A stretch of DNA of 64,000 bases, taken from NCBI GenBank assembly GCA_025361145.1, contig JANYAV010000025.1, positions 1 to 64,000 on the forward strand. The letters run 5' to 3'. Positions 9,939 through 56,750 of the stretch are shown here, piece after piece (positions within the stretch are counted from its first letter, which is position 1; every line of letters begins with the position of its first letter). Under the pieces are notes generated by a model that saw nothing but the letters and a program-made list of their open reading frames with translations, did no database searches and had not been told where the DNA came from. This stretch comes from Dehalococcoidia bacterium (GTDB taxonomy: Bacteria > Chloroflexota > Dehalococcoidia > Dehalococcoidales > UBA3254). The translations under genes were made by a program, and so were the position numbers.

Positions 9939-9968
9939 TTGACAAACACTATCCATTGTGGTTATATT
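9939..9968 (+). promoter_or_regulatory. Putative nrdR promoter
   Basis: TTGACA (9939-9944), 18-bp spacer, TATATT (9963-9968). Confidence 0.65.
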
Positions 9969-9992
9969 GATTTGCACCACTAGATATTGGGG
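9946..9992 (+). promoter_or_regulatory. Tandem NrdR boxes
   Basis: ACACTATCCATTGTGG (9946-9961) and CCACTAGATATTGGGG (9977-9992), 31 bp start-to-start, upstream of nrdR. Confidence 0.75.
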
Positions 9993-9999
9993 TTTATAA

Positions 10000-10566
10000 A
10001 TGAATTGTCCTTATTGTGGATATACTGATTCAAAGGTCATCGACTCTCGTGACGTTAATGACGGAGTCCGCCGCAGACGCCAGTGCCTGAGCTGTAACGC
10101 TCGCTTTACCACCCATGAACGTTTACAATCGGCCAGTCTGTTCATCATTAAAAAGGACCAACGGCGCGAGGAGTTTAACCGCGAAAAACTGCTGGGAGGG
10201 ATCCGCAGAGCCTGTGAGAAGCGCCCCCTGCCCACCGGTACTATTGAAAAAATCACGGATGAAATCGAAGCCGGCCTGTATAAACTGGGCAAGGCTGAAA
10301 TAGCCAGCACACTGATCGGCGATATGGTGATGGAGAAACTGAAAGAGCATGATTACATCGCTTACATCAGGTTCGCCAGTGTCTACCGGGAGTTCGCCGA
10401 TATAAGAGCGCTCAAAGAAGCGGTAGATAACCTGGTAGTGATGCCGAGAGGACAAGCCAGGGAAGCCTTAACCCCGCGGCCAGATAAAGGCACGAAAAAC
10501 CAGAAAACCGAAACAACGGTTAAGAAAACCAGCAGGAGATCGAAAACCCATGTCAAGCGGGCGTAA
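10000..10566 (+). CDS. nrdR: Transcriptional repressor NrdR
   Basis: 188 aa; MNCPYCGYTDSKVIDSRDVNDGVRRRRQCLSCNARFTTHER zinc ribbon plus ATP-cone. Confidence 0.97.
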   Translation: MNCPYCGYTDSKVIDSRDVNDGVRRRRQCLSCNARFTTHERLQSASLFIIKKDQRREEFNREKLLGGIRRACEKRPLPTGTIEKITDEIEAGLYKLGKAEIASTLIGDMVMEKLKEHDYIAYIRFASVYREFADIRALKEAVDNLVVMPRGQAREALTPRPDKGTKNQKTETTVKKTSRRSKTHVKRA

Positions 10567-13135
10567 TCAGATTGTCAAGACGATCTACTCAGTGGCCGAG
10601 TCGATGGGCATCTCTGAGAGAGAGCGTATCGATAGCGTTATCGAAAAATATATGAAGCTCACGGAGCCGGTGTCACTCCCCGGAATGGAAGCCCTGGTTT
10701 CAGACAAAGCTAAATCAGCGCATGCCCCCAGTTTAATGGAAATTCAAAGCATGGTGAAAGATATCCTGGCCAGGGAAGAACTAAAAAAACAGAAGGAGAA
10801 ACAGCCCAAAATGACTAGCACCATCGCTAAACCAGTAGTGAAAGTTTCTTCAGAAGATAAAACAACTGAAAAAGCGGTCAGCGGAACTAACCTGACTGAA
10901 AACGCAATTCACGTTTTAGAGAAACGCTATTTAAAGAAAGATAAAAGCGGAAAAGCGGTCGAAACACCCATTGAACTATTCAAACGAGTGGCACAGACTA
11001 TCGCCTCCGCCGACCTGAAATATAATGCCAACGCCGACGTTGAGGCACGTGAAGAAGAGTTTTTCCGGATGATGACCAGCCTGGATTTTTTGCCTAACTC
11101 ACCCACCCTGATGAACGCGGGACGGGACCTGGGACAGCTTTCGGCCTGTTTTGTCCTGCCTGTGGGCGATTCAATGGAAGAGATCTTCGACGCCGTTAAA
11201 TACACCGCCCTCATTCACAAGAGCGGCGGCGGTACCGGTTTCTCCTTTTCCCGCTTGAGACCGCATCAGGATAGAGTAGGTTCGACCGGCGGCATCGCCA
11301 GCGGCCCAGTTTCCTTCATCCGCGCCTTCGATACCGCTACCGATGTCATCAAACAGGGCGGCATGCGGCGCGGAGCTAATATGGGCATCCTCAGCGTAGA
11401 CCATCCTGACATCCTGAATTTTATAGACGCCAAAAAGGACATGGTCTCACTGACCAATTTCAACCTTTCAGTGGCTATTACCCAGGACTTTATGGAGGCG
11501 GTTAAAGCCGGCTCTGATTATAACCTGATCAATCCCCATAACGGAGAAGTCTTTGGCAAGTTAAATGCCAAAGAGGTCTTCAACAAAATCGTGGACGGAG
11601 CCTGGAAGACCGGCGATCCGGGTATTGTTTTTATTGACAGAATCAACCGGGACAATCCCACTCCCAAACTGGGTAAGATCGAAAGCACTAATCCCTGCGG
11701 TGAACAACCGCTGCTGCCTTATGAGTCCTGTAACCTCGGCTCGATTAATCTGGCCCGGATGTTGAAAACCGCTAAAAAAGAGGAAATAGACTGGCCGAAA
11801 CTGGCTAAAACTATCCACACCGCGGTGCATTTCCTGGACAACGTGATCGATATGAATAAATTCCCCCTGCCTCAAATCGAACAGCGCACCCGCGAGACAC
11901 GCAAGATCGGTCTGGGCGTCATGGGTTTTGCCGATATGCTGTTGCAGATGGGCATAGCTTATAATTCAGAAGAAGGACTCAAAACTGCCAGCGAGGTTAT
12001 GCGTTTTATTAACGACGAATGCCTTAAGGCCTCTCAAGAACTGGCGGCAGTTCGCGGAGTTTTTCCGGCTTACGAAGGCAGCATCTATGATAAAGCCAAC
12101 GGCATCAAGGTCAGAAACGCGGCCCGCACCACCATCGCTCCTACCGGGACTTTGAGCATCATCGCCAGTTGTTCCGGCGGCATTGAGCCTGTCTTTGCCC
12201 TCAGTTTTACCAAGAACATTCTGGACGGTTCACACCTGATCGAGGTCAATCCCTATTTCGAAGAAGCGGCTAAACGCGGCGGCTTTTACTCTAAAGAACT
12301 AATGCAGAAATTGGCTGAAGGCGAACATCTGGCTGATTTGGCCGATATCCCGGACGATATCAAGCGGGTTTATGTCACCGCCCATGAAATCACACCGGAA
12401 TGGCATGTCAGAATGCAGGCAGCTTTTCAGAAACATACCGATAACGCCGTATCCAAAACGGTGAATTTTGCTAAAACTGCTACCCGCGAGGACGTGGCCA
12501 ATGTATACCTGATGGCTTTTGAGCAAGGTTTGAAAGGCATCACCATCTACCGTGATGGAAGCCGCGAAGGACAGGTGTTGACCACCGGCAAAGACAAAAA
12601 AGCGGAAGCCGCGCCCGCCCAGGCAGCGCCTGTGCAGGTTTCCCGCACTCCGCGGAATAGAGCCAAGGTCACCACAGGTATCACGGAAAAAGTCCAGACA
12701 GGCTGTGGCAACATCTATGTCACGGTAAACTCGGACGATCAGGGTATTTGCGAGGTATTTTCTCACCTGGGTAAAGCCGGCGGCTGCGCCGTGGGGCAAC
12801 TCGAAGCTACCTGCCGTCTGATTTCCTTAGCTCTAAGAGCAGGCGTAGATTTAAATTCGATAGTCAAGCAATTAAAGGGCATCCGCTGTCCATCACCCTG
12901 CTGGGACAACGGCAAATCAGTTTTATCCTGCGCGGACGCCATCGCCATTATCCTGGAAAAATATATTCACGGAAAGACCAATAGTAACGGCAACGGACAT
13001 TCTCATGACAGCGCCAAAACAGCGGATGCGGGTTCATTGAAAAACACCGCAGGGCAATGCCCCGAATGTGCGACCCTGCTGAGCTATCAAGAAGGTTGCT
13101 TCGTCTGTCCCGGATGTGGTTATACTAAGTGTTAA
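10550..13135 (+). CDS. nrdJ: Class II (B12-dependent) ribonucleotide reductase
   Basis: 861 aa; DFLPNSPTLMNAGRDLGQLSACFVLPV, STNPCGEQPLLPYESCNLGSINL, C-terminal Zn-ribbon CPECATLL...CPGCGYTKC. Confidence 0.95.
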   Translation: MSSGRNQIVKTIYSVAESMGISERERIDSVIEKYMKLTEPVSLPGMEALVSDKAKSAHAPSLMEIQSMVKDILAREELKKQKEKQPKMTSTIAKPVVKVSSEDKTTEKAVSGTNLTENAIHVLEKRYLKKDKSGKAVETPIELFKRVAQTIASADLKYNANADVEAREEEFFRMMTSLDFLPNSPTLMNAGRDLGQLSACFVLPVGDSMEEIFDAVKYTALIHKSGGGTGFSFSRLRPHQDRVGSTGGIASGPVSFIRAFDTATDVIKQGGMRRGANMGILSVDHPDILNFIDAKKDMVSLTNFNLSVAITQDFMEAVKAGSDYNLINPHNGEVFGKLNAKEVFNKIVDGAWKTGDPGIVFIDRINRDNPTPKLGKIESTNPCGEQPLLPYESCNLGSINLARMLKTAKKEEIDWPKLAKTIHTAVHFLDNVIDMNKFPLPQIEQRTRETRKIGLGVMGFADMLLQMGIAYNSEEGLKTASEVMRFINDECLKASQELAAVRGVFPAYEGSIYDKANGIKVRNAARTTIAPTGTLSIIASCSGGIEPVFALSFTKNILDGSHLIEVNPYFEEAAKRGGFYSKELMQKLAEGEHLADLADIPDDIKRVYVTAHEITPEWHVRMQAAFQKHTDNAVSKTVNFAKTATREDVANVYLMAFEQGLKGITIYRDGSREGQVLTTGKDKKAEAAPAQAAPVQVSRTPRNRAKVTTGITEKVQTGCGNIYVTVNSDDQGICEVFSHLGKAGGCAVGQLEATCRLISLALRAGVDLNSIVKQLKGIRCPSPCWDNGKSVLSCADAIAIILEKYIHGKTNSNGNGHSHDSAKTADAGSLKNTAGQCPECATLLSYQEGCFVCPGCGYTKC

Positions 13136-13149
13136 TTTGCAGAGAAAAG

Positions 13150-13303
13150 AGGTATAATATTGGTAAGATGTATTTATTGGCTAGCTCCTGTATCAGGGAA
13201 GTACTTCTAAAACCTCTTTCGAGAGGGAAAATTCGTCCCGTCATCAAAATAGTATCTGGTTTGTCTGTTACGCGGCGGCCTTCCGGACTGCCGCTTTTCT
13301 TTA
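13150..13303 (+). ncRNA. Candidate structured RNA or 3' UTR ending in a terminator
   Basis: TATAAT at 13153-13158; perfect hairpin CCTCT-TTCG-AGAGG (13213-13226); GC-rich terminator at the end; no convincing CDS. Confidence 0.35.
13272..13302 (+). terminator. Intrinsic terminator
   Basis: GCGGCGG-ccttccgga-CTGCCGC followed by TTTTCTTT. Confidence 0.75.
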
Positions 13304-13369
13304 AATTATGAAGTTTACTTAGCCGGGTTAATAAAGCTGGCCAGGATTATAGGAAAGGAAGGTGTAAAA

Positions 13370-13633
13370 ATGGAAGAGCATATCTTTATTACACCCGAAG
13401 GACTCAATTTCAAGCCCAGTTGTGACAGCCCGGATCCAGATTTTCTGGATTTTCGTTCGATTAATTTCAACCCGGATGCGACGGTTCAGGACACGATCAA
13501 GGAACTAATGGAGCTTAATGCTAACATCGCGCAGAACAGCACCATGCAGAATCTGCCTTTCTCTATAAATATCGAGCCTCAACGACGCATGCGCTGGCCT
13601 AAAGGGTCCAAGCAACCGATTATGGCCTCCTGA
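13370..13633 (+). CDS. Small conserved-looking hypothetical protein
   Basis: 87 aa ORF with GAAAGGAAGGTG upstream; plausible ribosome-binding site. Confidence 0.5.
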   Translation: MEEHIFITPEGLNFKPSCDSPDPDFLDFRSINFNPDATVQDTIKELMELNANIAQNSTMQNLPFSINIEPQRRMRWPKGSKQPIMAS

Positions 13634-40452: not shown

Positions 40453-40512
40453 TATGAGGTTGCACAAGGACTCTCCTTGCGTAACTGCAAGGACAGACCT
40501 TGCAGACGTAAG
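40453..40512. repeat. Accessory-island repeat, copy 1
   Basis: TATGAGGTTGCACAAGGACTCTCCTTGCGTAACTGCAAGGACAGACCTTGCAGACGTAA; related to 42259-42318. Confidence 0.75.
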
Positions 40513-41550: not shown

Positions 41551-41898
41551 TTATCTGGTTAGTAAGGTCTCAAGTTTTTGCAGTACTTCGGAGATAGTGG
41601 CATCAGGCAGTGAACATATCAATTCGGCGTTACGAATCCGCCAGTCCAGATTTTTCACCTGATCGGATAAAATCGCCCCTTTGAGGGGTAGACCGGCAGG
41701 GATAAGAACTTCGAAGGGATAGGCTTTAACCTGGCTGGTAACCGGGCAAAGAATGGCCAGGCCAACCCTGTCATTGTAACTTGCAGGAGAAAGTACCACG
41801 GCGGGTCGCCTGCCAGCTTGTTCATGACCTGCCTGCGGATTTAAAGTAATCCAAACCGCATCCCCGCGATCAGGCACATAGGTATTTGAATCTACCAT
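41551..41898 (-). CDS. MazF/PemK-family toxin
   Basis: 115 aa; YVPDRGDAVWITLNPQAGHEQAGRRPAVVLSP. Confidence 0.93.
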   Translation of the reverse strand: MVDSNTYVPDRGDAVWITLNPQAGHEQAGRRPAVVLSPASYNDRVGLAILCPVTSQVKAYPFEVLIPAGLPLKGAILSDQVKNLDWRIRNAELICSLPDATISEVLQKLETLLTR

Positions 41899-42140
41899 AT
41901 TTCATTTCCGCGAGCCGTGCCGGCATCTACTTCACCATGCAGATTATCAGTGGAGATCCCGGCAAGCAGCTTTTTAAGGGTGTAAGCGGGTTTTATGATA
42001 GGTGAGACCACGACTTTACCATCTGCAAGGGAGATGTCCACTGCTGATTCTTTCTGCAAGCCTGCTTCAGCAGCAACACTTTTAGGAATTCGCAAAGCCA
42101 GACTATTGCCCCATTTTTGGATATGACTTCTCATAAACAC
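41892..42140 (-). CDS. MazE/AbrB-type antitoxin
   Basis: 82 aa; IQKWGNSLALRIPKSVAAEAGLQKESAVDISLADGKVVV; overlaps toxin. Confidence 0.93.
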   Translation of the reverse strand: MFMRSHIQKWGNSLALRIPKSVAAEAGLQKESAVDISLADGKVVVSPIIKPAYTLKKLLAGISTDNLHGEVDAGTARGNEIW

Positions 42141-42258
42141 ACCTCAGTTCAATGTATATACAATGAGGATACACTTATGAAAATAAAAAGTCAAAATATC
42201 AACTGATTCATGATTTAAGAAGAATAATTCAGGGTAGCTGATCAAATGAGGAAAGTCT

Positions 42259-42318
42259 ATGAGGTTGTACGAGGACTCTCCTTATGCGCCTGCAAGGACG
42301 GACCTAGCAGGCGTAAAA
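42259..42318. repeat. Accessory-island repeat, copy 2
   Basis: CTATGAGGTTGTACGAGGACTCTCCTTATGCGCCTGCAAGGACGGACCTAGCAGGCGTAA. Confidence 0.75.
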
Positions 42319-43166: not shown

Positions 43167-44390
43167 TCAAGGCGCTAAATTAAAATAATTCCTTAATTCA
43201 TTGATTTTGTCAGTATTTTCCCAGGTAAATTCAGGTAATTTTCTGCCGAAATGACCGAATGTGGCAGTTTTTTGATAGATGGGTCTTCTCAACTTAAGGG
43301 TATTGATGATGTTTTTTGGCGTCGGATAGAAAATTTGCATTACTGCTTGTTCTAATTTTGAAGCATTAACCTGGCCGGTTTCGTGAAGATTGATCATCAA
43401 AGAAATGGGTAGAACCTGTCCAATAGCGTAAGAGAGTTGAACGGTACAAGTTGATGCCAATTTGGCTGCAACAATATTTTTGGCGATATAACGAGCGTAA
43501 TAAGCGGCTGACCTATCTACTTTAGTAGGGTCTTTCCCTGAAAAAGCTCCGCCGCCGTGTGGGCAATAGCCGCCGTAAGTATCAACCACTATTTTGCGGC
43601 CGGTTAAGCCAGTATCGGCTTGAGGACCGCCTATTTCAAAGTTACCGCCAGGGTTGATCAGATACTGGGTGCTTTTATTTCTCAGATCCGGGGAAATAAC
43701 TTTACAGATTATCTCGTTCATTACTGTTTCCACCAGGGTTTCTGGCGTAACACCAGAATTGTGGGTTGAAAACACCACACTTTCAACTAAAACCGGTTTG
43801 CGTCCCTCATAGCGTATTGTGACCTGAGTTTTTCCGTCCGGTTTTAACCAGGGAAACCGTCCTGAATGCCTCAACTCGGATTGTTTTTGGGCTAATCGAT
43901 GGGCTAAAGTAATCCCTAAGGGCATTAACTCTGGAGTTTCGTCTGTGGCATACCCAAACATCATTCCCTGGTCACCAGCGCCTAACTCACCGTCATTATG
44001 ATGATCAACCGCACCGGCGATGTTAGCCGACTGATGACTCATAGAAGTTAATATCTGGCAGACTCCTCCGTCCAAGCCGCAGGATGGATCATCATAACCG
44101 ATTTGCCGCAGTTTGCGGCGGACAACCTCTTCATAGGGTATCTCGTCACTCGCGGTCACCTCTCCGGCCACTGCTACCAGATTCTTGGCTACGAGAATAT
44201 TACAGGCAACCCGCGCCTCAGGATCAATCGCAAGATAAGCGTCGAGTACAGCATCTGAAATCTGGTCAGCCACCTTATCCGGATGTCCTTCAAAAACTGA
44301 TTCGGATGTAAATAAATATCCCTTTTCCATATCTCTCCTTTTTCTATCTAATTCTGATTTAAAATCGTCATAATGTTTATTCATTGCCAT
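43167..44390 (-). CDS. metK: S-adenosylmethionine synthetase
   Basis: 407 aa; YLFTSESVFEGHPDKVADQISDAVLDA, GAGDQGMMFGYA, GGGAFSGKDPTKVDRSAAY; start may be internal (MEKGYLF). Confidence 0.97.
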   Translation of the reverse strand: MAMNKHYDDFKSELDRKRRDMEKGYLFTSESVFEGHPDKVADQISDAVLDAYLAIDPEARVACNILVAKNLVAVAGEVTASDEIPYEEVVRRKLRQIGYDDPSCGLDGGVCQILTSMSHQSANIAGAVDHHNDGELGAGDQGMMFGYATDETPELMPLGITLAHRLAQKQSELRHSGRFPWLKPDGKTQVTIRYEGRKPVLVESVVFSTHNSGVTPETLVETVMNEIICKVISPDLRNKSTQYLINPGGNFEIGGPQADTGLTGRKIVVDTYGGYCPHGGGAFSGKDPTKVDRSAAYYARYIAKNIVAAKLASTCTVQLSYAIGQVLPISLMINLHETGQVNASKLEQAVMQIFYPTPKNIINTLKLRRPIYQKTATFGHFGRKLPEFTWENTDKINELRNYFNLAP

Positions 44391-44803
44391 AAAAGATCGG
44401 CATTAATACCCCCGGAAGGTGGATTATCGGACGGTTTAGGAGGCTCATTCACCTCACAGAATACGCAATCATTCTCACTGAATATGACGCAAAGCCTGAC
44501 ATTGTCTCGTTTGACCAAATAGTCTGCTGATCCAATCACCATATTTCGGGCTTTATTAGTTAAGGTACCTGATTGATAAGCCTCCGGACAGACTATTGTT
44601 AAAGCTGATTTAACTGGGGGTTGGCCTTCATCGCTGGTAAATTCGACATGATATTGCTTGTAGACTCCAGAGTAAATATGTCTTACCAGGTATGGGTAAC
44701 GTTTTTCTTCTTGTCTAATTTTCTTAATATCGGATTCCTGGAAGCATTTATTAATTTCTTCAGTTGAAACATCATTATCATTGGCTGCTTTACCACGTGA
44801 CAT
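44381..44803 (-). CDS. Hypothetical protein in SAM-riboswitch operon
   Basis: 140 aa ORF overlapping metK by 10 nt, downstream of SAM-I riboswitch. Confidence 0.65.
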   Translation of the reverse strand: MSRGKAANDNDVSTEEINKCFQESDIKKIRQEEKRYPYLVRHIYSGVYKQYHVEFTSDEGQPPVKSALTIVCPEAYQSGTLTNKARNMVIGSADYLVKRDNVRLCVIFSENDCVFCEVNEPPKPSDNPPSGGINADLLWQ

Positions 44804-44865
44804 TGTTGCCCCTCCATTCTGGTTATTTTTACTATCATTGATTTCTTTAAACTAAGGCTTATTTA

Positions 44866-44918
44866 TAAAAAAATAGCCACCTCCTTTTCAGTTGTTAGCT
44901 ATCAAGGAAGCGGCTATT
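44866..44918 (-). terminator. Second long terminator-like hairpin after SAM aptamer
   Basis: 15-bp stem AATAGCCGCTTCCTT/AAGGAGGTGGCTATT (two G-U pairs) followed by a T7 run. Confidence 0.75.
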
Positions 44919-44926
44919 ACGGATAA

Positions 44927-44950
44927 CAAAAAACCTCCCGAAGGAGGCTC
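44927..44950 (-). terminator. Terminator of SAM riboswitch expression platform
   Basis: CCTCC-TTCG-GGAGG followed by TTTTTT on minus strand. Confidence 0.85.
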
Positions 44951-44979
44951 ACTGCCTTCCTTTTCACGGATATCCGCGC

Positions 44980-45081
44980 CTATCGTTGCCCTTGCGGGCT
45001 GGCTTTGGCACCTTTAAGAAAGATCATAAAGGTTGCCGGGCGGGTCATCGGGCCATTTCCCTGACCGCCACTCTCGATAGC
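44980..45081 (-). ncRNA. SAM-I (S-box) riboswitch aptamer
   Basis: Minus strand CTATCGAGAGTGGCGGTCAGGGAAATGGCCCGATGACCCGCCCGGCAACC...GGTGCCAAAGCCAGCCCGC...CGATAG, upstream of metK operon. Confidence 0.93.
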
Positions 45082-45112
45082 AATTTATTCTATTATTAAC
45101 CTGTGTAATCCT

Positions 45113-45140
45113 ATTATAGCCTATAGATTATCTTTGTCAA
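45113..45140 (-). promoter_or_regulatory. Promoter of SAM riboswitch transcript
   Basis: TTGACA - 16 bp - TATAAT on minus strand. Confidence 0.8.
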
Positions 45141-45150: not shown

Positions 45151-45903
45151 TTAGTTTCGCAGTAATTCATAAATCTTGGGCAGGTCCCAGATTGTAAAAA
45201 TACCAAGCACTGGATCTTTTTTAAAACCATTTTGGGAAATTATAATTGCGTTTAGCCTCTTGCCTTTTTCTTGATATTCCTGAAATTTAAAGAGTATCGT
45301 AAAAATATTTTCTGCCCTTTTTAGCAGGATAAAATTATCAACATCTTCTGTGTATTCTAAAACTTCCCGTAATTTGGTCTCTTTAAGACTAAAAACATCT
45401 GTACCAACTTTTGCCCCTAACCAACGAGACACGGTGTCAGAAGTAAGCAAAGCAACACATGTACCGTTTTCGAATATGGGAAACTGCGAAAATGATCGAC
45501 TATAAATTAATTTGACTGCCTCATCAAGTGTTGAATCAAGTTGTAAAATATTAACCTTATTATTGGCTATTTTTTCAATAAGAGGAGGAGAGATTATTTT
45601 ATCGGCAATAAATTCTATTTTATTAACGACAGCCATATGAGGTTCAGCTATCGTATGCCCATCTGATCTCTCATGAACAATAGCATTCCTTAGATCAGCA
45701 AACTCTCTTAAGTCATCCAAGTACCATTTAACCTGATCAATTTTAGTTGATGCTTTTATAATCAATCCGGCAAAAGTAGTGACGTTAGTTTCGTGAGTAG
45801 ATTTACGCAGCAAATGTTCGATATCGCTGAACGCTTTTAGGAAGCGCTGGGAATTGATAGTTGTTTCTTGTTCCCTGCTACTTGAATCTGGTATATTTCT
45901 CAC
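45151..45903 (-). CDS. HEPN-like plus paired CBS-domain protein
   Basis: 250 aa; FADLRNAIVHERSDG (R-X4-H) then CBS-like repeats (ILQLDSTLDEAVKLIYSRSFSQFPIFENGTCVALLTSDTVSRWL; VLGIFTIWDLPKIYELL). Confidence 0.7.
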   Translation of the reverse strand: MRNIPDSSSREQETTINSQRFLKAFSDIEHLLRKSTHETNVTTFAGLIIKASTKIDQVKWYLDDLREFADLRNAIVHERSDGHTIAEPHMAVVNKIEFIADKIISPPLIEKIANNKVNILQLDSTLDEAVKLIYSRSFSQFPIFENGTCVALLTSDTVSRWLGAKVGTDVFSLKETKLREVLEYTEDVDNFILLKRAENIFTILFKFQEYQEKGKRLNAIIISQNGFKKDPVLGIFTIWDLPKIYELLRN

Positions 45904-45915
45904 CGGTCTCCTTAT

Positions 45916-46638
45916 TTAAAAGGGAAGTTCGGAGTCTTCCACTTTGGGTAAAACGATAACCCCTGCTACAAACTTGTAACACTTGTGCATCTTCTCATAC
46001 AATCCTAGACTAGTTGTATACAAGATTGTATCTTCAGAACCTGGGCGTTTTTCATCGCCAAATAGTAATTCATTGTGAAGATATGTCCCATAATCCAAAT
46101 TGCCAAGCAGTTCCTCCCATTTTGGATCAGTTACAGACAAATTATATTCAACATCGTTATAGGTAAAGTGAGCCCGAGTTTGCCGTCTACCATATCTTGA
46201 TTTTTTGATTTCCCAGGTAATATCAGACGGTTCAATCAAACACAGGGAACTTACCAAATGTTCTTCCTCAATTTTTGAACATGATATGCTATCAGAAGAA
46301 TCGCCAAATATATATTGATCGGTAGTGATCAAACTTTGAAGAAATAAATATGCTCTCTCTGGCAATACTCGCTCAATCAATTCCCATTGGTAATCCTCAT
46401 TGAAAAGCCAATTTTCCGGTTGATGTGGTTCAGGCACAGATTCCAAAACATCGACTCGAATAATATCCAGAATAGAAGCCTCGGTGCCATCATCCAGAGT
46501 GTAGTCATTTAGCTCTAACTCGCCATGTTCTTTACTGCTGACTGGCCGGAACCAGCAAAGATCATGCAGGGTAATACCAGCCACACACCTTCCACCTTCC
46601 TTTCTTGAGTTAGCCAGGCATATAAACGTCTTGAGCAT
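45916..46638 (-). CDS. Dual-OB-domain-like protein
   Basis: 240 aa; KTFICLANSRKEGGRCVAGITL...CWFRPVSSKEHGEL start; operonic with DUF488 genes. Confidence 0.65.
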   Translation of the reverse strand: MLKTFICLANSRKEGGRCVAGITLHDLCWFRPVSSKEHGELELNDYTLDDGTEASILDIIRVDVLESVPEPHQPENWLFNEDYQWELIERVLPERAYLFLQSLITTDQYIFGDSSDSISCSKIEEEHLVSSLCLIEPSDITWEIKKSRYGRRQTRAHFTYNDVEYNLSVTDPKWEELLGNLDYGTYLHNELLFGDEKRPGSEDTILYTTSLGLYEKMHKCYKFVAGVIVLPKVEDSELPF

Positions 46639-46653
46639 GTCTTTCTCCCGACT

Positions 46654-47100
46654 TTAAAGATGGACTATTTCGATATCACCCCATTTGCTTTTCAAATATT
46701 CCAGGACTAATCTTCTATGGCATTTTTGTGGAGTTGGTTCACTGCACAATACGACGGTAGGCAACTCAAAGGTAGAACGGGGAATTTTATTTTCAACCTG
46801 TCGGGTGGTCATTAAGGCTAAAAAGGCTTTCTCATAGTTGAACCAGTTGCCTTTTTCCTTTTTATAAGCATCCAGGATTTCCTTGGTTGGCGCTAATATT
46901 ACTTCATGGCGGTAGACGATACCGCAGATATTTTTAAGGAAATATTTCAGGTCTTCCTGTTTGGTAAAACCCGCCAGTTGAGAGACATTGTTAAGTCGGA
47001 TGTCTATAAGTTGTTTGATTTCAGTCTTCTTTAAGGTTTCGAAGAATCCTTCTGCGGTCCGTTTGGTGAATCCAATTGAATAGGCTTTGCGGATTTCCAT
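46654..47100 (-). CDS. DUF488-family protein
   Basis: 148 aa; IGFTKRTAEGFFETLKKTEIKQLIDIRLNN...VLCSEPTPQKCHRRLVLEYL. Confidence 0.9.
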   Translation of the reverse strand: MEIRKAYSIGFTKRTAEGFFETLKKTEIKQLIDIRLNNVSQLAGFTKQEDLKYFLKNICGIVYRHEVILAPTKEILDAYKKEKGNWFNYEKAFLALMTTRQVENKIPRSTFELPTVVLCSEPTPQKCHRRLVLEYLKSKWGDIEIVHL

Positions 47101-47654
47101 GGCTCCTCCTTTTCACGAACAAACAAGCCTAATGAGAGTTGATTTTGGCTGTAGGTCGTTTTACTGGATAATTCTTGTTCAGATTGAATGCGTCCATCCG
47201 CTCTGATGTGCAGTCCCTCGATGCCCAGGTTGGATAAGACTTTACCGATTAAAAGCCGGCGATGACATTCAGTGGGGTCTTCTTCGCTACACATGATGGC
47301 CACTTTATATTTGGCTATTCCCTCAATTAATCGATCGATGGTTTTAATAAAATCAGGGGATTGGGCAATACGATCATATAATACATATCCCTCTGTATCG
47401 TAAAAAGCCGGGTTGCTGGGTTTGCCGCCAATTTCCTTGCCGAAATAGAGATAGCTCAAACCTGCTTTGGTTATTGCTTCTTTCAAACGTGCAGAATCAA
47501 ATTGGCTGGCATATTTCGAGCGGGGAATAGACCGGACATCTACCAGGACCTGGATGCCGTTGTCTAGCAAGAGTTTTAAAAAGCTATCCAGACTCTGGTT
47601 TGAATGGCCAATGGTATATATAGTTTTGGCGGTGGTCTTTTCTGGTGCTTCCAC
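47031..47654 (-). CDS. DUF488-family protein
   Basis: 207 aa; TIYTIGHSNQSLDSFLKLLLDNGIQVLVDVRSIPRS...IMCSEEDPTECHRRLLIG. Confidence 0.93.
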   Translation of the reverse strand: MEAPEKTTAKTIYTIGHSNQSLDSFLKLLLDNGIQVLVDVRSIPRSKYASQFDSARLKEAITKAGLSYLYFGKEIGGKPSNPAFYDTEGYVLYDRIAQSPDFIKTIDRLIEGIAKYKVAIMCSEEDPTECHRRLLIGKVLSNLGIEGLHIRADGRIQSEQELSSKTTYSQNQLSLGLFVREKEEPWKSAKPIQLDSPNGPQKDSSKP

Positions 47655-47777
47655 TGATTACTATCCAACCTTCAACGCGATCTAGCTATTATTATAACTA
47701 TTATAACCATCTTTAACTTACAAAGCATTAAGGAGCTTCCTTTTTTCGGAAGGGCTAAGTTTTGGGTGATTCCTCAT

Positions 47778-50700
47778 CTACTTGTTTCCTTCCACCACCG
47801 CTATCTCCTCCGAGGTGAGCTCATAAAGCTGGTAGACCAACTGGTCAATCTGAGCTTCCAACGCCCTGGTATTGTCTTTGGAAGCTTGTTTCTTAACGGC
47901 AATGATTTGTGTAACTAACGATTCGATTTTGTTCACAAAGGGTAGATTTTGATTAGTGAAAGGTGGAATAGGGATACATTCTACGAATTGTTTAAAATAC
48001 CTCATGCCATTTTCGCCCAAATCCGTAGATATTTTGGGAAAATACCAACTGTTAATTTTGGAGTTTAATATGCCGCAAAGAGCCAAATTGTTTTTATTAC
48101 TCAAAACCATATATGCGGTATTATTAAAGTAGAAACTCTGTGGAAGAACGGTAAAAGTGGGCTCCCGTGAAATATCACTCCAAACCACTTTTTCTTTTTC
48201 GAACTCGGAATAATAAGCAATAGGATCTTGAGTTTCAAACCATTTATTCCCAGTTAGTTTTCTGGACTTAGAACCGTCTGGTAGTATTTTACCAGATTGT
48301 TCCAGTTTATCCTTCCCAAAAGAAAGTAAATGCTTTTTCACAGCAGGATATTCAACTATGTTCACATTTAATGATGGGAAGGTGGCAATAACATACAATC
48401 CTGCCCAATCATAGCTGTAACGCTTTATATCCCTGCCACGTAAAATTGGCTTCAAGATTTCAGCGCTTTTGGGGTCTTCGTTGCAAAGGAGATCTTTGGT
48501 CGCAGTGTCGACTATAAATGCTTCGTTGAGACCTGTTTTAATCCCGTAGTAAATCGATACATCCCAATCCTTGAGAGGTTTACCAAGGTGTTCTATCTTC
48601 TCCTTGAGTTTTTGTTGGGCATCGTTACCAATAAACCAAGCGTCTGGGGTCATTTGCGGAAGCTTGATGGCATTCTTATTAATATATTCTGCCAGATCTT
48701 TACCCTTTGCATCAGTTGTTAAAGTTAAACCACGCAAAGAACAATTGCTTTCGGCATTCTGTACAATCAAAATATTAGTATCTACAGTGGCATTCTCAAA
48801 GACACCAGGTCCTAAATCAACAATCAGGCAAGTATTTTTAGTTAAAAGATAACTTCGCAGACTTTCGCCATATCCAGCGCGCATCCATTTATTGCTGGTG
48901 ATATAGCAAAGATGACCACCATGTCGCAATAAAGTTATTCCACGCTCATAAAAGAGAGTATAAATATCACCTGCACGTTCAAAGGTTACAAATCCTTTAT
49001 TTTCATAAAGGTTGGCTAATTTCCCGCTATCTTTTTGTAGCTGAATATACGGCGGGTTGGCAATCACGATATCGAAGCCCCCTTTCTCACGAAATACTTC
49101 AGCAAAGTAAAGCTTCCAGGCAAAGAAAGGCTTGTCCTGGAAACCTCTGGTGAATTCTAAAAGTTGTTTTTCAATTAAACCCAGATCGAAATGATAGTTT
49201 TTGTTCAACGCCTGGATATCTTTTTTAATGCTTTCATTTCTCTGTTGGGCATCGGGAACAATGGAGTATTTATCTTCAATTTTCTTTAATTTGTTATAGT
49301 ATTCCGTTTTCTGATATTTTAATTTTCCCTCAAATATCTGATTGATTAGTTTTTCAATTTCAGTTTTCAGCTCAGCTTTTTTACTTCGGTCGGCTGTATT
49401 CTGGTATTCACTTTTGTTTTTCTGAAAAACCTGTATCAAAATATCCAAATCATCTTTCATTAGCTTTCCGTAGGATTTTGGATCCTCAGCATCAAAATCA
49501 ATTCCCATGAACTCTGAAATTAAGCTGTTACCCTGCATCAGCTTAAAATCAAGATTGGGGAGCGGCTCAACGCCCCAGTTAGATTTGGATTTATCTATCT
49601 TCTCATCTACCAGAAGAGCGATAAAAAATCTCAGTTTAGATATCTCTATAGCAATCTGCTGAATATCTACACCATAAATACATTTTTCAATGAGGTAGAG
49701 TTTCCTGCCATAGTTTGAATTCTTCTCAGTGAATCTAATCCTGATTTGCTCTTTAAGTTGCTGTTTAATAATAGGGTCGGGAACCCCTTCAACGGCTTTC
49801 ATTTGAGTTTCTTTCCACAATTTGTTATCTGGGTCGAGTTTGAAAAGAGCGAGCACGAGCTTGTTCAGGATGCCCATCGGGAAGGCACCCGACCCAACCG
49901 CAGGATCGACAATCCGTAAATCATCTGTAAGTTGAACAACTTTCTTAGTGTCAACCTCCGAAAACGGATTATTTTGAGTGTCTTCGGCATTGGAAAAGAG
50001 AATATCCAGTTTATTCTCAACTCCATCAATCTGTCCAAGGTAAGTTTTATAGTACCGTTTTAGGGATTGTCCAACCATATAGTCCACGATTTCACGCGGG
50101 GTATAATAGCTGCCGGTGGCTTTGCGGGCGGTCGTGGCGGTCTCCGGATTGAAGCTCGCCAGCAAGTTTTCAAATACATTACCCAACAGTTCCGGATCCA
50201 GAGCTACTTCCTGATCATTCGGATCATTTTCATCAATAGTAAAATTATAGGCTGAAAGAATATTAAGCAATCCTTGAACACTGTAAACTTTATTATTGGT
50301 ACCATAATCATTATTCAAATCTGCGTTTACTGGGTCAGCGAAAAAAAGTAAATTGGGCACACTCAACCCAACCTCTTTATCAGTGAAGCCATCCACCCGA
50401 AATTCGACATTTTTACCATCTGTAGCATAACGCCTATCTAAACAGTCAAACAAACCGCCGTTTAGAAAAGGTATATCCTTGAATATTTCAAGCATATCAT
50501 CCTGATTCTTAAAATATGTTTCATAGCGGTAGATACCGTGATCCATATAATCCTGATTCCAGCCTTTGTTATAAGAAGTTTTAAAACGGAATTTACGGTC
50601 TTCTATTTTGGTATTCAAAGTAGCAAAGAAAAGGTTCTGTAAAATCGCCTTATAATAAGTGGTCTCGTTGAGCTTCAGACTTTTTAATAAAGAAGCTATT

Positions 50701-51398
50701 TTGTTTTGATCGAATAATAGCCCTGAAACAAGTCCACGCTCTTTCATAAACCAGATAAAGATAAGCCGGGTAATCATGCGGATTACAGAAATGTTGCGCC
50801 CATTTGTTTCTTGCTCCGCACCCTCAGGAAAAGATACATTCTTCACAGCCCAAAAATACCAATCGGCAATTTGTCTGTAGAAATCTTTAGTTACCTTTTC
50901 TACTGAGAAGGCGTCCTTAATGCTTGTTAATGAAGCGAAGTCACATGTACCTATCCTTTCTTTAAACGTTTTATTAGTTTGTTCCGGCTTCACAAAATAA
51001 GTGAAACGGCGGAAATTGCTATAAGATTTTTTAGGGCCTTCAGCCTGTCCGTAAACCAGACTAAAACGAAAAGAACCAGCAGTATCAAAAAAGACAAAAA
51101 TTCCCGCATCATATTTCATGTAGCCTTTGAGTATTTTCTTGGCTTTTTCATACTGGGCTTTTTTGCCGCTGCGTTCAGTTAAGTCAGATTCTACTTCCGC
51201 TGTTGCGATCAGCATCTTTTCAGCCTGGCCGAAACTAATTTCACCAAGAGTATGAAAGTTAGAAAATTTACCAATCTCATCGTACGGGGAGAGATCATCA
51301 TCGATCTCTCGGTAAGATTTGCTAACGGTATGAAAAAAAATATTGAGATTTCTTTTATCACAACGGTCAATGACTTTCTGGAGAAGTTCTTTACTCAT
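47778..51398 (-). CDS. Eco57I-class N6-adenine DNA methyltransferase
   Basis: 1206 aa; TGSYYTPREIVDYMV, IVDPAVGSGAFPMGIL, FDIVIANPPYIQLQ; C-terminal TRD-like region. Confidence 0.92.
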   Translation of the reverse strand: MSKELLQKVIDRCDKRNLNIFFHTVSKSYREIDDDLSPYDEIGKFSNFHTLGEISFGQAEKMLIATAEVESDLTERSGKKAQYEKAKKILKGYMKYDAGIFVFFDTAGSFRFSLVYGQAEGPKKSYSNFRRFTYFVKPEQTNKTFKERIGTCDFASLTSIKDAFSVEKVTKDFYRQIADWYFWAVKNVSFPEGAEQETNGRNISVIRMITRLIFIWFMKERGLVSGLLFDQNKIASLLKSLKLNETTYYKAILQNLFFATLNTKIEDRKFRFKTSYNKGWNQDYMDHGIYRYETYFKNQDDMLEIFKDIPFLNGGLFDCLDRRYATDGKNVEFRVDGFTDKEVGLSVPNLLFFADPVNADLNNDYGTNNKVYSVQGLLNILSAYNFTIDENDPNDQEVALDPELLGNVFENLLASFNPETATTARKATGSYYTPREIVDYMVGQSLKRYYKTYLGQIDGVENKLDILFSNAEDTQNNPFSEVDTKKVVQLTDDLRIVDPAVGSGAFPMGILNKLVLALFKLDPDNKLWKETQMKAVEGVPDPIIKQQLKEQIRIRFTEKNSNYGRKLYLIEKCIYGVDIQQIAIEISKLRFFIALLVDEKIDKSKSNWGVEPLPNLDFKLMQGNSLISEFMGIDFDAEDPKSYGKLMKDDLDILIQVFQKNKSEYQNTADRSKKAELKTEIEKLINQIFEGKLKYQKTEYYNKLKKIEDKYSIVPDAQQRNESIKKDIQALNKNYHFDLGLIEKQLLEFTRGFQDKPFFAWKLYFAEVFREKGGFDIVIANPPYIQLQKDSGKLANLYENKGFVTFERAGDIYTLFYERGITLLRHGGHLCYITSNKWMRAGYGESLRSYLLTKNTCLIVDLGPGVFENATVDTNILIVQNAESNCSLRGLTLTTDAKGKDLAEYINKNAIKLPQMTPDAWFIGNDAQQKLKEKIEHLGKPLKDWDVSIYYGIKTGLNEAFIVDTATKDLLCNEDPKSAEILKPILRGRDIKRYSYDWAGLYVIATFPSLNVNIVEYPAVKKHLLSFGKDKLEQSGKILPDGSKSRKLTGNKWFETQDPIAYYSEFEKEKVVWSDISREPTFTVLPQSFYFNNTAYMVLSNKNNLALCGILNSKINSWYFPKISTDLGENGMRYFKQFVECIPIPPFTNQNLPFVNKIESLVTQIIAVKKQASKDNTRALEAQIDQLVYQLYELTSEEIAVVEGNK

Positions 51399-54300
51399 TC
51401 ACAACCTCATGATTTTCTACAGCTACAATAACCTCTTTAACAGTGGATGTAGTTTTTTGCTTAACGGCCTCAAGATAGAAGCGTCCCATTTCCCGGATGA
51501 GATCGTCTAAAAAGGCTTTTATATTGGCGATATTCGTTTCATCTTTTAAACCAGCTTTTAAAACCGAAATACGCCGCAGAGTATAATCCGGTAGAGTCTT
51601 ATAATCTTCAATATCTTCACGTAGAATAAGCAGAAAGTCCTGATATTCCTGATAAGATCCGGTTCTATCAGCCAATAAGGTCAAAATATTAGCATAAGCT
51701 TTCTTTTCCAGGCTTAATTCACTGGATTGGATGATGACACGCTCTTTCTGCTCTTTGATTAGCTGGTAATTAGTCCAGAATTTATCACTTAAAGCTAACG
51801 CCGGTTCTTCTTTAGTGCATTGAATTAACGGCAAAGCTTCTTCAAAAAGCATTTCGGTTGGTTTTTTATCATCCCCGTTCAGATTACTGATAAACAACCC
51901 TGAACCTTTTTTTATAAAAACGGTCAGAGCGTATGAGGAATACTGCTTGGCTACCTTGATACGAGGGGGTAACCGGCTAATCTTTTGTTTAACCATAGGA
52001 TCGATTTCCGCATAGAGACGGCGCAAAGTGGTCTGGAAACTTTCCTGCTCCTGCTGCTCGGGATTCTGCTGGATTTTATCGAAAAGTTTAGAAGCTGAAG
52101 GTTCCTCATCCGGCTCAAAGATCTTGGCATCTTCGCCAAGCGTATTATGGATAAGAAACATTTTTTCTCTAGCTATCTGTCGGCTTTTCACGTAAGTTGC
52201 GCCTTTCTCGGTTGGAAAGAAGTTATAAATATAGAGGTTATCGAAGACCTTTTTGCTGATACGGTTGATTCTGCCAACACGCTGGATAACACGGGTAGGA
52301 TTCCAGGGAATATCCAAATTAATCACCGCTCCTGCGCGGTTAAGATTAAAACCTTCCGACATTCTATCGGTCGCCAGCATGATCTGGTATTGGTTCGCTT
52401 GATTCTTATAAGTGGTATCAAAATTACTCAGAACTGCGGCTTCTTTAATTTTATTGAAGTCGCCTTTGATAGTAATAATCTGGCCAGGAAATTGCTTCTC
52501 AAGATGAGACTCTACGTATTTAACGGTGTCAAGATATTCTGAGAAGATAATTACCTTCCGGACTGGCTCGGTGTTTTTTTCTTTTTTATTGAGAACGTCC
52601 TTCATGAAGGTGCATAATTTAGCTAATTTGGGATCATTATCAGCTACAAGATGAAGATCATCCAACTCTTTCAGAATCTTATCGAGCAGCTTTATATCGG
52701 ATCGGATATCTGCGAGGAATTTTTCTCCAGCCACAAATTGACTCAATTTATAGACTTTATAATTCTTGGGAAAACTGCCATTTACCAATTTCTGGGCATA
52801 ATCCTGTAATGCCAATTCAATATCATCTTCATCTGAATCCGCCAATTGTTCGACGATCTTACGATCGAGGATATATTGGCCGCTGGTTTCAATGAACTTA
52901 AGCACTTTTATACTTACTCTTTGGAAATTGGTAATACTTTCTTTGAAAGCTCCGAAGGAACTTTCAAAGCGCTTAACCAGCAGACGCCGCATAAATTCAA
53001 ACAGGTTGGTTTGAGTGAGTTTTTCAATGTTCTGGGCCTCATTCAAAATGACGATATCGCCTGTTTCATATAAAAACGGCTGGTAAATAGCTCCGGTAAA
53101 GAGTCCGTCTTCAGCAAAATACTCAGACACAACCCGGTCATAGAAACTGGACTGATCATGGGTAAGCTCAAAGAAAGCCTCTTGCGGATCTTTAATATTG
53201 GAAAGCTCATAAATTTCCTTTGAATATTCGGGATCAGTCCTCAAGTCGATGCGGTTACGGCGAATTGTGACCTTGGAAATTACCTGGCGTATCTCCAGCG
53301 ATAAAGAACGAGCACGGGCTGTGACCTTTTTAATATCAACGTGATTGGAATCGAAAAGAACTTTATAGTCTTTTTGGGCTTTATCTTTTTTAACAGGGTT
53401 GGAAGACTGGTAATTCTTTTTTATGTTGGAAAGACGTCTGAATATTTCAGAATAATGACGGAATTGAGCATCCAGATTATTAGATAGAGTCAGATTTGAT
53501 TTACCGGGAACGACAAAAAGTTTAAGCAATGAAAAAATATCGGCAGGGGTGTTATTAAAAGGGGTGGCGGTAAGCAGAATTACTACTTTGCCACGGCAAA
53601 TGTTGCTGAGAGTTTGATAGGCCTCAGTATCCTGATTGCGGAATCGGTGGGCTTCATCTACAATGATAACGCCAAAATCCGGTTCATTCTGGACCAATGA
53701 GAGTGTCTTTTCGAGGGTTTCTTCACCGCAGGATCTTATTTCCCAGGATAATAGCTCAAAATCATGAACATATTTACTCCAGCCGGAACGAACGCCATCA
53801 ACTCCCGGTTCACCCTTAAGAGCCGGAGGACAAATAATAATACCGCGTTTTCCTAAGAATTTGGCGACCATCGAAGCAATAATGCTTTTACCCAAACCTA
53901 CAACGTCGGAGATGATAACTCCATTTTCTTGTTCAATAATGCTGAGAGCCTGAGCGACGGCATCAACCTGATACTGATATTTTTTATAACCCTTATTTTC
54001 CAGAAGCTGGAAAATATATTCCTGAAAGTTTTTGGGGCGACGGGTTTCCAGATAGGTTTTCAAGATGAATGCGTAAGCCTCATAGGGGGTGACCTTAGCA
54101 ATAAGGGTGCATTCGGTAAGGACTCGGATCAGTTCCTTTTTAAAGACGTTGTCTTCAGTAATTTCAACCGAGCCGTAATTCCATAAATCGTCAAAATAGG
54201 CTTCAGCCTCAGCAGTGCCAAAGTCGCTTAACTCAACATTAAATTCATTCTGATGGGATAGGCCTGCGCTGGTGAGATTACTGCTGCCGGTGATAAAGAC

Positions 54301-54765
54301 GCAGGGTTTAGGAATACAATGGTCGCCATCAAATTTGAAGATATAGAGTTTAGCGTGGTTAGGATCGCGAGTTTTTTTAATTATTAATCTACCATCGATA
54401 ATGGCCTGGATGAAGAATGACGCCTGTTCGTAAAACTCCTGGGTATCAAACCGATCTGAATTAATTGATTTGATAATAGAATCTTTAAACAGAGATTGCT
54501 GCTGATTCCCATCTAGTTTTTCAGTGGCTCCGTATTCCATCAAGCCGAAGGCAGTCTTATCAACATTCAAACCAACCAGAACCTTGAATTTTACGGCAGT
54601 GTTGTTTTTCAAAGCCTCGTAGAGCTGACTGATACCGGAATAGTAGAAAAAACCTACCAGAAACTTTAATTCCTGGCTAACTGAAATCAAATCAGAAATT
54701 CTGGATTTCAGGACTTTTTCTGGGCTATTGGTAATAAAAGAGCTGGGATCAGATGTATCGGGCAT
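51391..54765 (-). CDS. PLD-nuclease-like domain fused to SNF2/SF2 helicase
   Basis: 1124 aa; N-terminal PLD-like region (NHAKLYIFKFDG...FITGSSNLTSAGL = HxK + GSSN), helicase motifs (ISDVVGLGKSIIASMVA, VIIVDEAHRFRN, LLTATPFNN, DIPWNPTRVIQRVGRINR). Confidence 0.93.
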   Translation of the reverse strand: MPDTSDPSSFITNSPEKVLKSRISDLISVSQELKFLVGFFYYSGISQLYEALKNNTAVKFKVLVGLNVDKTAFGLMEYGATEKLDGNQQQSLFKDSIIKSINSDRFDTQEFYEQASFFIQAIIDGRLIIKKTRDPNHAKLYIFKFDGDHCIPKPCVFITGSSNLTSAGLSHQNEFNVELSDFGTAEAEAYFDDLWNYGSVEITEDNVFKKELIRVLTECTLIAKVTPYEAYAFILKTYLETRRPKNFQEYIFQLLENKGYKKYQYQVDAVAQALSIIEQENGVIISDVVGLGKSIIASMVAKFLGKRGIIICPPALKGEPGVDGVRSGWSKYVHDFELLSWEIRSCGEETLEKTLSLVQNEPDFGVIIVDEAHRFRNQDTEAYQTLSNICRGKVVILLTATPFNNTPADIFSLLKLFVVPGKSNLTLSNNLDAQFRHYSEIFRRLSNIKKNYQSSNPVKKDKAQKDYKVLFDSNHVDIKKVTARARSLSLEIRQVISKVTIRRNRIDLRTDPEYSKEIYELSNIKDPQEAFFELTHDQSSFYDRVVSEYFAEDGLFTGAIYQPFLYETGDIVILNEAQNIEKLTQTNLFEFMRRLLVKRFESSFGAFKESITNFQRVSIKVLKFIETSGQYILDRKIVEQLADSDEDDIELALQDYAQKLVNGSFPKNYKVYKLSQFVAGEKFLADIRSDIKLLDKILKELDDLHLVADNDPKLAKLCTFMKDVLNKKEKNTEPVRKVIIFSEYLDTVKYVESHLEKQFPGQIITIKGDFNKIKEAAVLSNFDTTYKNQANQYQIMLATDRMSEGFNLNRAGAVINLDIPWNPTRVIQRVGRINRISKKVFDNLYIYNFFPTEKGATYVKSRQIAREKMFLIHNTLGEDAKIFEPDEEPSASKLFDKIQQNPEQQEQESFQTTLRRLYAEIDPMVKQKISRLPPRIKVAKQYSSYALTVFIKKGSGLFISNLNGDDKKPTEMLFEEALPLIQCTKEEPALALSDKFWTNYQLIKEQKERVIIQSSELSLEKKAYANILTLLADRTGSYQEYQDFLLILREDIEDYKTLPDYTLRRISVLKAGLKDETNIANIKAFLDDLIREMGRFYLEAVKQKTTSTVKEVIVAVENHEVVNE

Positions 54766-54818
54766 TTTGTTTATCCTTCAGCAATTTTGATGTTTGATCC
54801 ATTTTTACAATTACGCCA

Positions 54819-54847
54819 ATTATACACTGCTTGAATAGCGCTAACAA
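54819..54847 (-). promoter_or_regulatory. Promoter of PLD-helicase/MTase cluster
   Basis: TTGTTA (54842-54847) - 17 bp - TATAAT (54819-54824) on minus strand. Confidence 0.7.
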
Positions 54848-55056: not shown

Positions 55057-55617
55057 ATGCTAAATGAAATAATAATTGCAAGAACCGATCAAAAAATATT
55101 ACGCTTTCTAGCTAAATATTCTGACAAAGAATTCCACGAGCGAGAAATAGCTAGACGAATTGGCATAGCCTCCGGGTCAGCTAACCGTGCTCTTAACGAG
55201 CTTTTTACCTCCGGAGCTGTCAAGCGCAGACATGAATTTAGAAGGCTGTTCTACTCCGTGGATTCTTCTAACCCGGCTATGCGTGAATTCAAAAAGCTGG
55301 TCAATATTTTGCTTATTGAACCCCTGGTAGAAAAGCTAAAACCTATCTCAGCTCGAATCATTCTCTATGGTAGTTGTGCTCAAGGTTCAGATAACTCAAA
55401 AAGCGATATGGATATTTTTGTCGTCACCTCCGATCGAGCAAGGGCGTTGAGCGCTGTCGGGAATTGCTCTTTTCCAGAGGGATTCGAGAATATTCACATT
55501 CAGGCCGTCATTAAAAACCCCGCCGAAGTTTTAAAAGCCGGGGAATCCGAGCAAGTGTTTTTAAATGAGGTAGAAAAAGGGATTGTTTTATGGGAGAGCA
55601 GCGCACGTGAATCCTGA
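55057..55617 (+). CDS. wHTH-MNT nucleotidyltransferase (antitoxin-type)
   Basis: 186 aa; N-terminal wHTH (EIARRIGIASGSANRALNELFTSGAVKRR) and MNT motif ILYGSCAQGSDNSKSDMDIFVV. Confidence 0.9.
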   Translation: MLNEIIIARTDQKILRFLAKYSDKEFHEREIARRIGIASGSANRALNELFTSGAVKRRHEFRRLFYSVDSSNPAMREFKKLVNILLIEPLVEKLKPISARIILYGSCAQGSDNSKSDMDIFVVTSDRARALSAVGNCSFPEGFENIHIQAVIKNPAEVLKAGESEQVFLNEVEKGIVLWESSARES

Positions 55618-56038
55618 GTTTACTAAATTTATTGAAAGCGGAAAATTGATCGCCTATCCCGGGGCACATGAAATGGTGGCGAAAGAACTAGCGGTAGCTA
55701 AAAGCGACCTGGTGGACGCCAGGGATGGTTTCGACGCCGGACGATATAAATGGTCTACGATCGAAGGCTATTACTTGATGTTTCATGCATCAAGAGCACT
55801 GATTTATTCTAGAAATTATCGTGAAAAAAGCCATTATGCTGTTACCGTGGCATTAAAGGCCCTATTTGTTGAAGAAAAAATCCTGGACATCCGTTTCGTG
55901 CGGGATTTATTAAACGCTATGAATTTACGCGAAGCAGCGGACTATCAGGCCGAGTTTTCTAAAGAAGGCGCAGAAGCGGTCATCAAAGCTGCAGAAAATT
56001 TTATTGAAACCACCGCAACTATTTTGAAATTGAATTAG
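55607..56038 (+). CDS. HEPN-domain protein (toxin-type partner)
   Basis: GTG start overlapping MNT gene; YYLMFHASRALIYSRNYREKSHYAVTVALKALFV with R-X6-H-like motif. Confidence 0.85.
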   Translation: MNPEFTKFIESGKLIAYPGAHEMVAKELAVAKSDLVDARDGFDAGRYKWSTIEGYYLMFHASRALIYSRNYREKSHYAVTVALKALFVEEKILDIRFVRDLLNAMNLREAADYQAEFSKEGAEAVIKAAENFIETTATILKLN

Positions 56039-56167: not shown

Positions 56168-56452
56168 TCAGGCTTGATTATGTTTGTTAATTAAAGCTTT
56201 GGTGAGCTGATAGTCGGTTTCCAGATTTAACCAGAAGCGAGCGGGAATCTCCGGCATGACTTCTTCCAATTGTATAGCTGTCTCAGCGGTAATGGCTTTC
56301 TTACCTTTGATAATTTCATTGATGGTATTAATGGGCCTTCCCATTCTTTTAGCTAATTCCTTCTGAGAGAGCTCACGCGCCTGGATCTCTTCCGCTAAAA
56401 ATTCCCCGGGGGGCATAGCTATATCCGGATAAGCTGCAGTTTTAGTTACCAT
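56168..56452 (-). CDS. higA: HigA-family antitoxin (copy 2)
   Basis: 94 aa, 2 differences from copy 1. Confidence 0.9.
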   Translation of the reverse strand: MVTKTAAYPDIAMPPGEFLAEEIQARELSQKELAKRMGRPINTINEIIKGKKAITAETAIQLEEVMPEIPARFWLNLETDYQLTKALINKHNQA

Positions 56453-56750
56453 AGTAATCCTCCACGTCCACGATGCGGACGGTGTCTTCCGCGATTTTTT
56501 GAATGATAAGCCGATAATTACCAGTGAGCGTTATAGCGTGTTGCCCGGCACGATCACCTTTTAAAGGATGTAAACGTAAAGCTTGAAAACTGAACAGTTG
56601 GGTGAATTTATCGGCCGCTCTGATGATAAGTATTCGTTGAATATATTTCCGGCCTATTGGAACCCCAAACTGGCGACTGGCGGTTGAAAGACTGAGACTG
56701 GCTTCAGATAAATGGTTGTTTGAGAATTCTATATTCACGCATACACCCAT
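56442..56750 (-). CDS. higB: HigB/RelE-family toxin (copy 2)
   Basis: About 16 differences over 98 aligned residues from copy 1; start may be an internal GTG. Confidence 0.85.
   Translation of the reverse strand: MGVCVNIEFSNNHLSEASLSLSTASRQFGVPIGRKYIQRILIIRAADKFTQLFSFQALRLHPLKGDRAGQHAITLTGNYRLIIQKIAEDTVRIVDVEDYYGN

Follow-up and report, generated by a model that had tools for sequence, protein, structure and literature searches.

Class 1 DISARM systems (DrmD, DrmMI, DrmA, DrmB, DrmC) combine a SNF2 helicase, an Eco57I-like MTase and a PLD nuclease. Type IIG and type ISP enzymes possess an MTase with its own target-recognition domain (TRD), and the type ISP enzymes, in which nuclease, motor, MTase and TRD form one chain, have an SF2 motor. 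In the type-2 BREX-related systems (Hma-like, DUF499), which have been read as restriction-modification-like (PMC12839542), an HKD-SNF2 helicase is accompanied by an N6-MTase. Fusions of a HEPN domain to a CBS domain were reported in 2013 and proposed to carry out nucleotide-responsive RNA cleavage (PMC3710099). The PADLOC collection lists a phage defence candidate, PDC-M45, composed of a dual OB-fold protein (DuOB) and two DUF488 proteins; no paper giving DUF488 or DuOB a defence function was found under those words in the literature searched.

The locus described here belongs to a 64,000-nucleotide stretch of DNA from a Dehalococcoidia bacterium, which was analysed at its full length and is termed the window. 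Six minus-strand ORFs follow each other in one row (45151-54765, Table 1), and each of them has full-length homologs, which argues against chance ORFs. Along the row, an 8-nt overlap (helicase/MTase), a 123-nt gap, a 70-nt overlap (DUF488 B/C), a 15-nt gap and a 12-nt gap are observed, and the ORF coordinates thus agree exactly with a first-pass annotation that had regarded the six genes as one system. The domains named at that stage (PLD-helicase, N6-MTase, two DUF488, dual-OB and CBS) hold in Pfam, all parts come from defence-associated families, and the helicase/MTase pair is restriction-like. The promoter-like site announced ahead of the helicase is present as well; across the region, 33 promoter-like sites are counted versus 27.8 (sd 4.4) in shuffled sequences, a number not clearly above the shuffles. 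The 123-nt gap yielded no terminator-like site. With their single direction, short gaps, low G+C content and a largest gap devoid of such a site, all six genes may be co-transcribed.

Table 1. Features of the six-gene row, with positions in the window.
Feature	Position	Strand	Basis and assignment
PLD-SNF2 helicase, 1124 aa	51391-54765	-	Pfam PLDc_2 + SNF2 + Helicase_C; predicted restriction subunit
PLDc_2 hit within the helicase, aa 116-195	54181-54420	-	Pfam
N6-adenine DNA MTase with specificity domain, 1206 aa	47778-51398	-	Pfam Eco57I + TaqI_C; predicted modification and recognition subunit
MTase target-recognition domain (TaqI_C), aa 983-1144	47967-48452	-	Pfam
DUF488 protein B, 207 aa, = PDC-M45B	47031-47654	-	Pfam DUF488; PADLOC 176 bits
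DUF488 protein C, 148 aa, = PDC-M45C	46654-47100	-	Pfam DUF488; PADLOC 215 bits
DuOB, dual OB-fold protein, 240 aa, = PDC-M45A	45916-46638	-	Pfam PF22557 169 bits; PADLOC 152 bits
HEPN-CBS protein, 250 aa (Rx4H-bearing helical N-terminus followed by CBS)	45151-45903	-	Pfam CBS; HEPN inferred from motif
Promoter-like TTGTTA-17-TATAAT, upstream of the helicase	54847-54819	-	Consensus match only, 10/12
Gap of 123 nt between restriction pair and DUF488 module	47655-47777	-	TATAAT-like string inside; module boundary

The G+C content is 0.37-0.47 at 40-57 kb, compared to ~0.49-0.55 on the flanks. This low-GC stretch, located upstream of rpoB, also holds MNT/HEPN, HigBA and MazEF pairs, and is probably a horizontally acquired defence/toxin-antitoxin island. 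The MNT/HEPN toxin-antitoxin-like pair (55057-56038, plus strand), divergent from the helicase gene, encodes a winged-HTH-nucleotidyltransferase, whose gene comes first and exhibits a weak PDC-M05A match (78 bits), and a PF05168 HEPN protein. The HigBA-like pair (56168-56750) and the MazEF pair (41551-42140), both on the minus strand, lie near the two edges of the island. Direct repeats of 59 nt, 83% identical (40453-40511 and 42258-42316), flank the HTH/MazEF stretch and are possibly the trace of an insertion or duplication.

Downstream of the row, the minus strand carries a second metK gene (metK2) preceded by a 140-aa ORF (43167-45140), the other metK being located on contig C1. A SAM riboswitch (RF00162, 45083-44977, 49.5 bits) precedes the 140-aa ORF and metK2, and a perfect TTGACA-16-TATAAT lies ahead of them at 45140-45113, so that the two genes look like a separate transcription unit. 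An 85% identical copy of metK2 occurs in a same-genus genome, in a different setting. A special supply of SAM to the MTase was considered and rejected, as relatives possess metK2 without this locus; its own promoter-like site and riboswitch are a further ground against such a link.

An alignment of the PLD-SNF2 helicase, built in this work, was scanned against 84,980 species genomes and retrieved 80 loci from many bacterial phyla, 32-58% identical, to which four plasmid loci are added (84 in all). An Eco57I-type MTase gene is found at most 6 kb from the helicase gene in 36 of the 37 loci offering 5 kb or more on each side; the partners occur in either order at the helicase loci and often overlap by 4 nt. 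The PLD residues H137, K139, N163 and E174 are invariant in 79 helicase homologs, as are K293 (Walker A), D370-E371 (DExH) and the motif VI arginines with their neighbour (Q828-R829 and R832). Among 49 MTase homologs, NPPY at position 781 is invariant and DPAVGSG at 498 (DPxxGSG) nearly so, while the TRD is hypervariable in the alignment. Mean identity to the window proteins amounts to 44% for the helicase, 40% for the MTase N-terminus, 36% for the MTase core and 25% for the TRD. A constant linkage between MTase and nuclease/motor together with a variable recognition domain is typical of restriction-modification systems that change their target site. From these sequence comparisons, the helicase and MTase are read as a widespread two-gene unit, predicted to be a two-subunit ATP-dependent restriction-modification system. 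The methylation-sensing nuclease/translocase proposed earlier survives as far as the restriction-like pair is concerned, but the sensing is better read as ordinary restriction-modification self-protection. No PD-(D/E)XK motif is recognised in the N-terminus of the 49 aligned MTases, and a PDB fold search with the AlphaFold model of this region (pLDDT 87) gave nothing at E<=0.001, the best TM-score being ~0.2 by query length. A more distant PLD-helicase, following an 890-aa ORF and cut by the contig end, was observed in a same-genus genome (G001, locus L230, 6466-11707).

By model cut-offs, the locus is not a canonical type I, type ISP, DISARM or BREX system, in agreement with the first-pass annotation. 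The pair passes no curated NCBIfam cut-off of a named system and the PADLOC matches of the helicase are modest: its best PADLOC model is C3a139 ‘HKD+Snf2’ (128 bits), and it scores 121 bits against the NCBIfam PLD anti-phage protein model, whose cut-off is 1100. With class 1 DISARM it shares the SNF2 helicase, the Eco57I-like MTase (weak DrmD and DrmMI matches) and the PLD nuclease, but here the PLD domain is fused to the helicase and the cluster is devoid of drmA and drmB genes. DISARM was rejected on the DrmD score (145 bits versus an NCBIfam cut-off of 610); among the six proteins, PADLOC reports no DrmB, and DrmA weakly via the helicase (60.7 bits). BREX was rejected likewise, its PglX models reaching 94 of 500 and 51 of 400 bits, and neither PglZ nor BrxC is found among the six proteins. 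The type-2 BREX-related systems display the same HKD/PLD-on-SNF2 helicase architecture beside an N6-MTase; however, their defining DUF499 (PF04465) is absent from the genome (~96% complete), which led to this name being rejected for the pair, DUF3780 is absent from the six proteins, and the HmaA model reaches 80 bits. The type IIG and type ISP enzymes have in common with the MTase its own recognition domain (REase_MTase_IIG, 607 bits in PADLOC), but in the present case the motor and nuclease reside on a separate chain and the nuclease is of the PLD type; type ISP was discarded because the functions are split between two chains, whose genes overlap by 8 nt.

The next three genes do have a named match: PADLOC recognises all three M45 proteins in adjacent genes (45916-47654), and the trio is thus the listed candidate PDC-M45. 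DUF488 B exhibits invariant CxE...CHR, GHS and DVR motifs among its aligned relatives. The trio was retrieved as a stand-alone unit at 62 other loci, 26 cellular and 36 on viral contigs. Several small plasmids are among its carriers, and on plasmids it stands by itself near CBASS, type III CRISPR and viperin genes. DuOB is present in 44 of 400 genomes of the phylum, with DUF488 genes adjoining it in nearly all loci read. The gene set and the 70-nt DUF488 overlap recur elsewhere, the latter being kept in a same-order genome (G003, locus L012, 11492-11561). The trio of the window differs by its position behind a restriction pair and by its B-C-A order, which is shared by six other cellular loci and one viral locus, A-B-C being commoner. 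In three genomes of the phylum (L124, L126 and L127), the DUF488 pair follows a tandem of DuOB genes (A-A-B-C). At the L012 locus (11939-13522 and 8440-10818), DuOB is fused in frame to NHL-type beta-propeller repeats, and the fusion adjoins a proteasome-like/DUF6717 protein and a metallophosphoesterase-like ORF.

Among the 36 viral contigs with DUF488-C, nine hold A, B and C and 24 hold A and C. At the A-C loci, the following gene encodes an mSLOG-DUF4326 fusion in 13 of the 13 scanned, often with a 4-nt overlap. A second form of PDC-M45 is seen at these viral (L172-L199) and plasmid (L146-L149) loci, DUF488-B being missing and the mSLOG-DUF4326 protein standing after DUF488-C. DUF4326 has been proposed to act on the terminal phosphates of ADPr products (PMC9503650), and on this basis our best guess, held with low confidence, is that the whole module may act on a nucleotide substrate of the ADP-ribose type. 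The predicted model of DUF488-C (pLDDT 92) has no solved-structure match at E<=0.001; its weak fold matches, among them tetrapyrrole methylases and Cys-phosphatases (PRL, C. difficile PTP), were not used as evidence of chemistry.

The last protein has a known architecture, a HEPN-type Rx4H motif and then a CBS domain, and no difference from the reported HEPN-CBS fusions was seen other than sequence divergence; here, it lies inside a defence island. Its CBS domain passes the Pfam cut-off narrowly (25.1 bits versus 24). The HEPN-like call of the first-pass annotation is suggested by the Rx4H motif RNAIVH (R72-H77), kept in the collected relatives; Pfam gives no match to this part. As the function of this protein, a nucleotide-sensing abortive arm would be plausible. 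In the phylum, its relatives are lone genes, mostly among ordinary genes, and none was found in a search of viral contigs. A 4-nt overlap between the HEPN-CBS gene and an MTase-like gene is seen on a Chlorohelix plasmid.

Comparison of neighbourhoods separates these parts. It relied on trio and helicase profiles built in this work and on flanks of at most 10 kb, contigs being often short. Within these flanks, none of the 84 PLD-helicase loci (80 genome contigs and four plasmids) has DuOB, DUF488 or HEPN-CBS nearby, and a PLD-helicase is missing from all 62 trio loci. Within the order, genomes G042 and G056 possess the pair without the trio, and G003 the trio without the pair. In the 400 genomes of the phylum, the helicase occurs in 12 and DuOB in 44, with both in three only, namely the window genome, G087 and G177; in the latter two they are on different contigs, and a shared contig is found only in the window genome. 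At the loci compared, the blocks do not occur together, and the claim that the six genes form one system is not upheld. Most probably, the six genes are three independent modules, of two, three and one gene, stacked in a defence island. A functional coupling of the modules in this genome, by recruitment after the pair, is possible.

A single six-gene defence system restricted to this lineage would account for the contiguity, the common strand, the short gaps and the one upstream promoter-like site, but with no second instance in ~150 loci and with order relatives carrying one block without the other, it is the least probable of the readings weighed here. Hardly better is a tiered, co-transcribed arrangement in which restriction would be followed by a nucleotide signal, made or read by the DUF488/DuOB proteins and sensed by the CBS domain, which would unleash the HEPN RNase. 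A looser coupling, unlikely but deserving more weight, would have the pair as a restriction core with an exchangeable slot on its 3' side, recruiting a lineage-specific back-up effector (here PDC-M45 and HEPN-CBS) that acts when restriction fails. The gene after the pair is often close, on the same strand and of varied effector-like kinds, the slot holding in other genomes TIR, caspase, Abi_2, OLD-TOPRIM, GmrSD, DUF3644, AAA/SMC-like or HARE-HTH proteins, the latter with a weak PD-(D/E)XK match. The overlap on the Chlorohelix plasmid points the same way, and back-up effectors are known in BREX and BREX-related loci (PMC12839542). However, several neighbours are housekeeping or unrelated genes (UbiA, LexA, PRiA4_ORF3), as would be the case in any defence island, accessory families seldom recur, and the setting of most HEPN-CBS relatives among ordinary genes does not favour such recruitment.

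Two further alternatives concern single modules. The pair could be a DISARM or type-2 BREX-related system reduced by loss of its other subunits, as its weak similarity to the DrmD, DrmMI, HmaA and PglX models and the helicase-MTase pairing of the BREX-related systems (PMC12839542) might suggest. The wide shortfall from the DrmD and BREX MTase cut-offs and the lack of DUF499 make this improbable; moreover, what stays constant across the lineages seen is the pair itself, so that a reduction in this genome is not the explanation. PDC-M45, for its part, could be a phage counter-defence device, brought in on prophages and plasmids, that binds or breaks down a nucleotide serving as an immune signal. 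Its presence on viral contigs and small plasmids and the replacement of one DUF488 by mSLOG-DUF4326 are in favour of this view, which has the best standing among the alternatives and yet stays on the unlikely side: within defence islands, cellular copies also have CBASS, type III CRISPR and viperin genes as neighbours, and prophages carry defence genes as well.

With three independent modules as the preferred reading, their working may be outlined as follows. In the first, the MTase would read a short site via its C-terminal recognition domain and methylate adenine on self DNA. The SNF2 motor would be loaded at unmethylated sites, or scan for them together with the MTase, and then translocate, while the N-terminal PLD domain would cut foreign DNA; as a single HKD-type motif is recognised per chain, a dimer is probable here. 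The second module (DUF488-B, DUF488-C and DuOB) is a candidate defence or counter-defence trio. DuOB is most likely its nucleic acid- or nucleotide-binding member. The two DUF488 proteins, which have the invariant CxE...CHR, most likely act on a nucleotide, e.g., an ADP-ribose derivative, and here the outline is at its least secure. In the third, HEPN-CBS is most likely an RNase restrained by nucleotide binding to its CBS domain, and would serve as a stand-alone stress or abortive effector.

Contiguity within a defence island is therefore weak evidence for one system, as two, three and one genes come apart once their neighbours are compared. PDC-M45 occurs on dozens of viral contigs, and the replaceability of one of its DUF488 proteins by mSLOG-DUF4326 points to nucleotide-signal chemistry. 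Were the tiered arrangement true, exchangeable effectors would be grouped around the helicase/MTase pair, the core of a modular restriction family of two genes. As it stands, the PLD-SNF2/N6-MTase two-gene unit is widespread, falls below the cut-offs of named systems, and lends itself to direct testing as an ATP-dependent restriction system.
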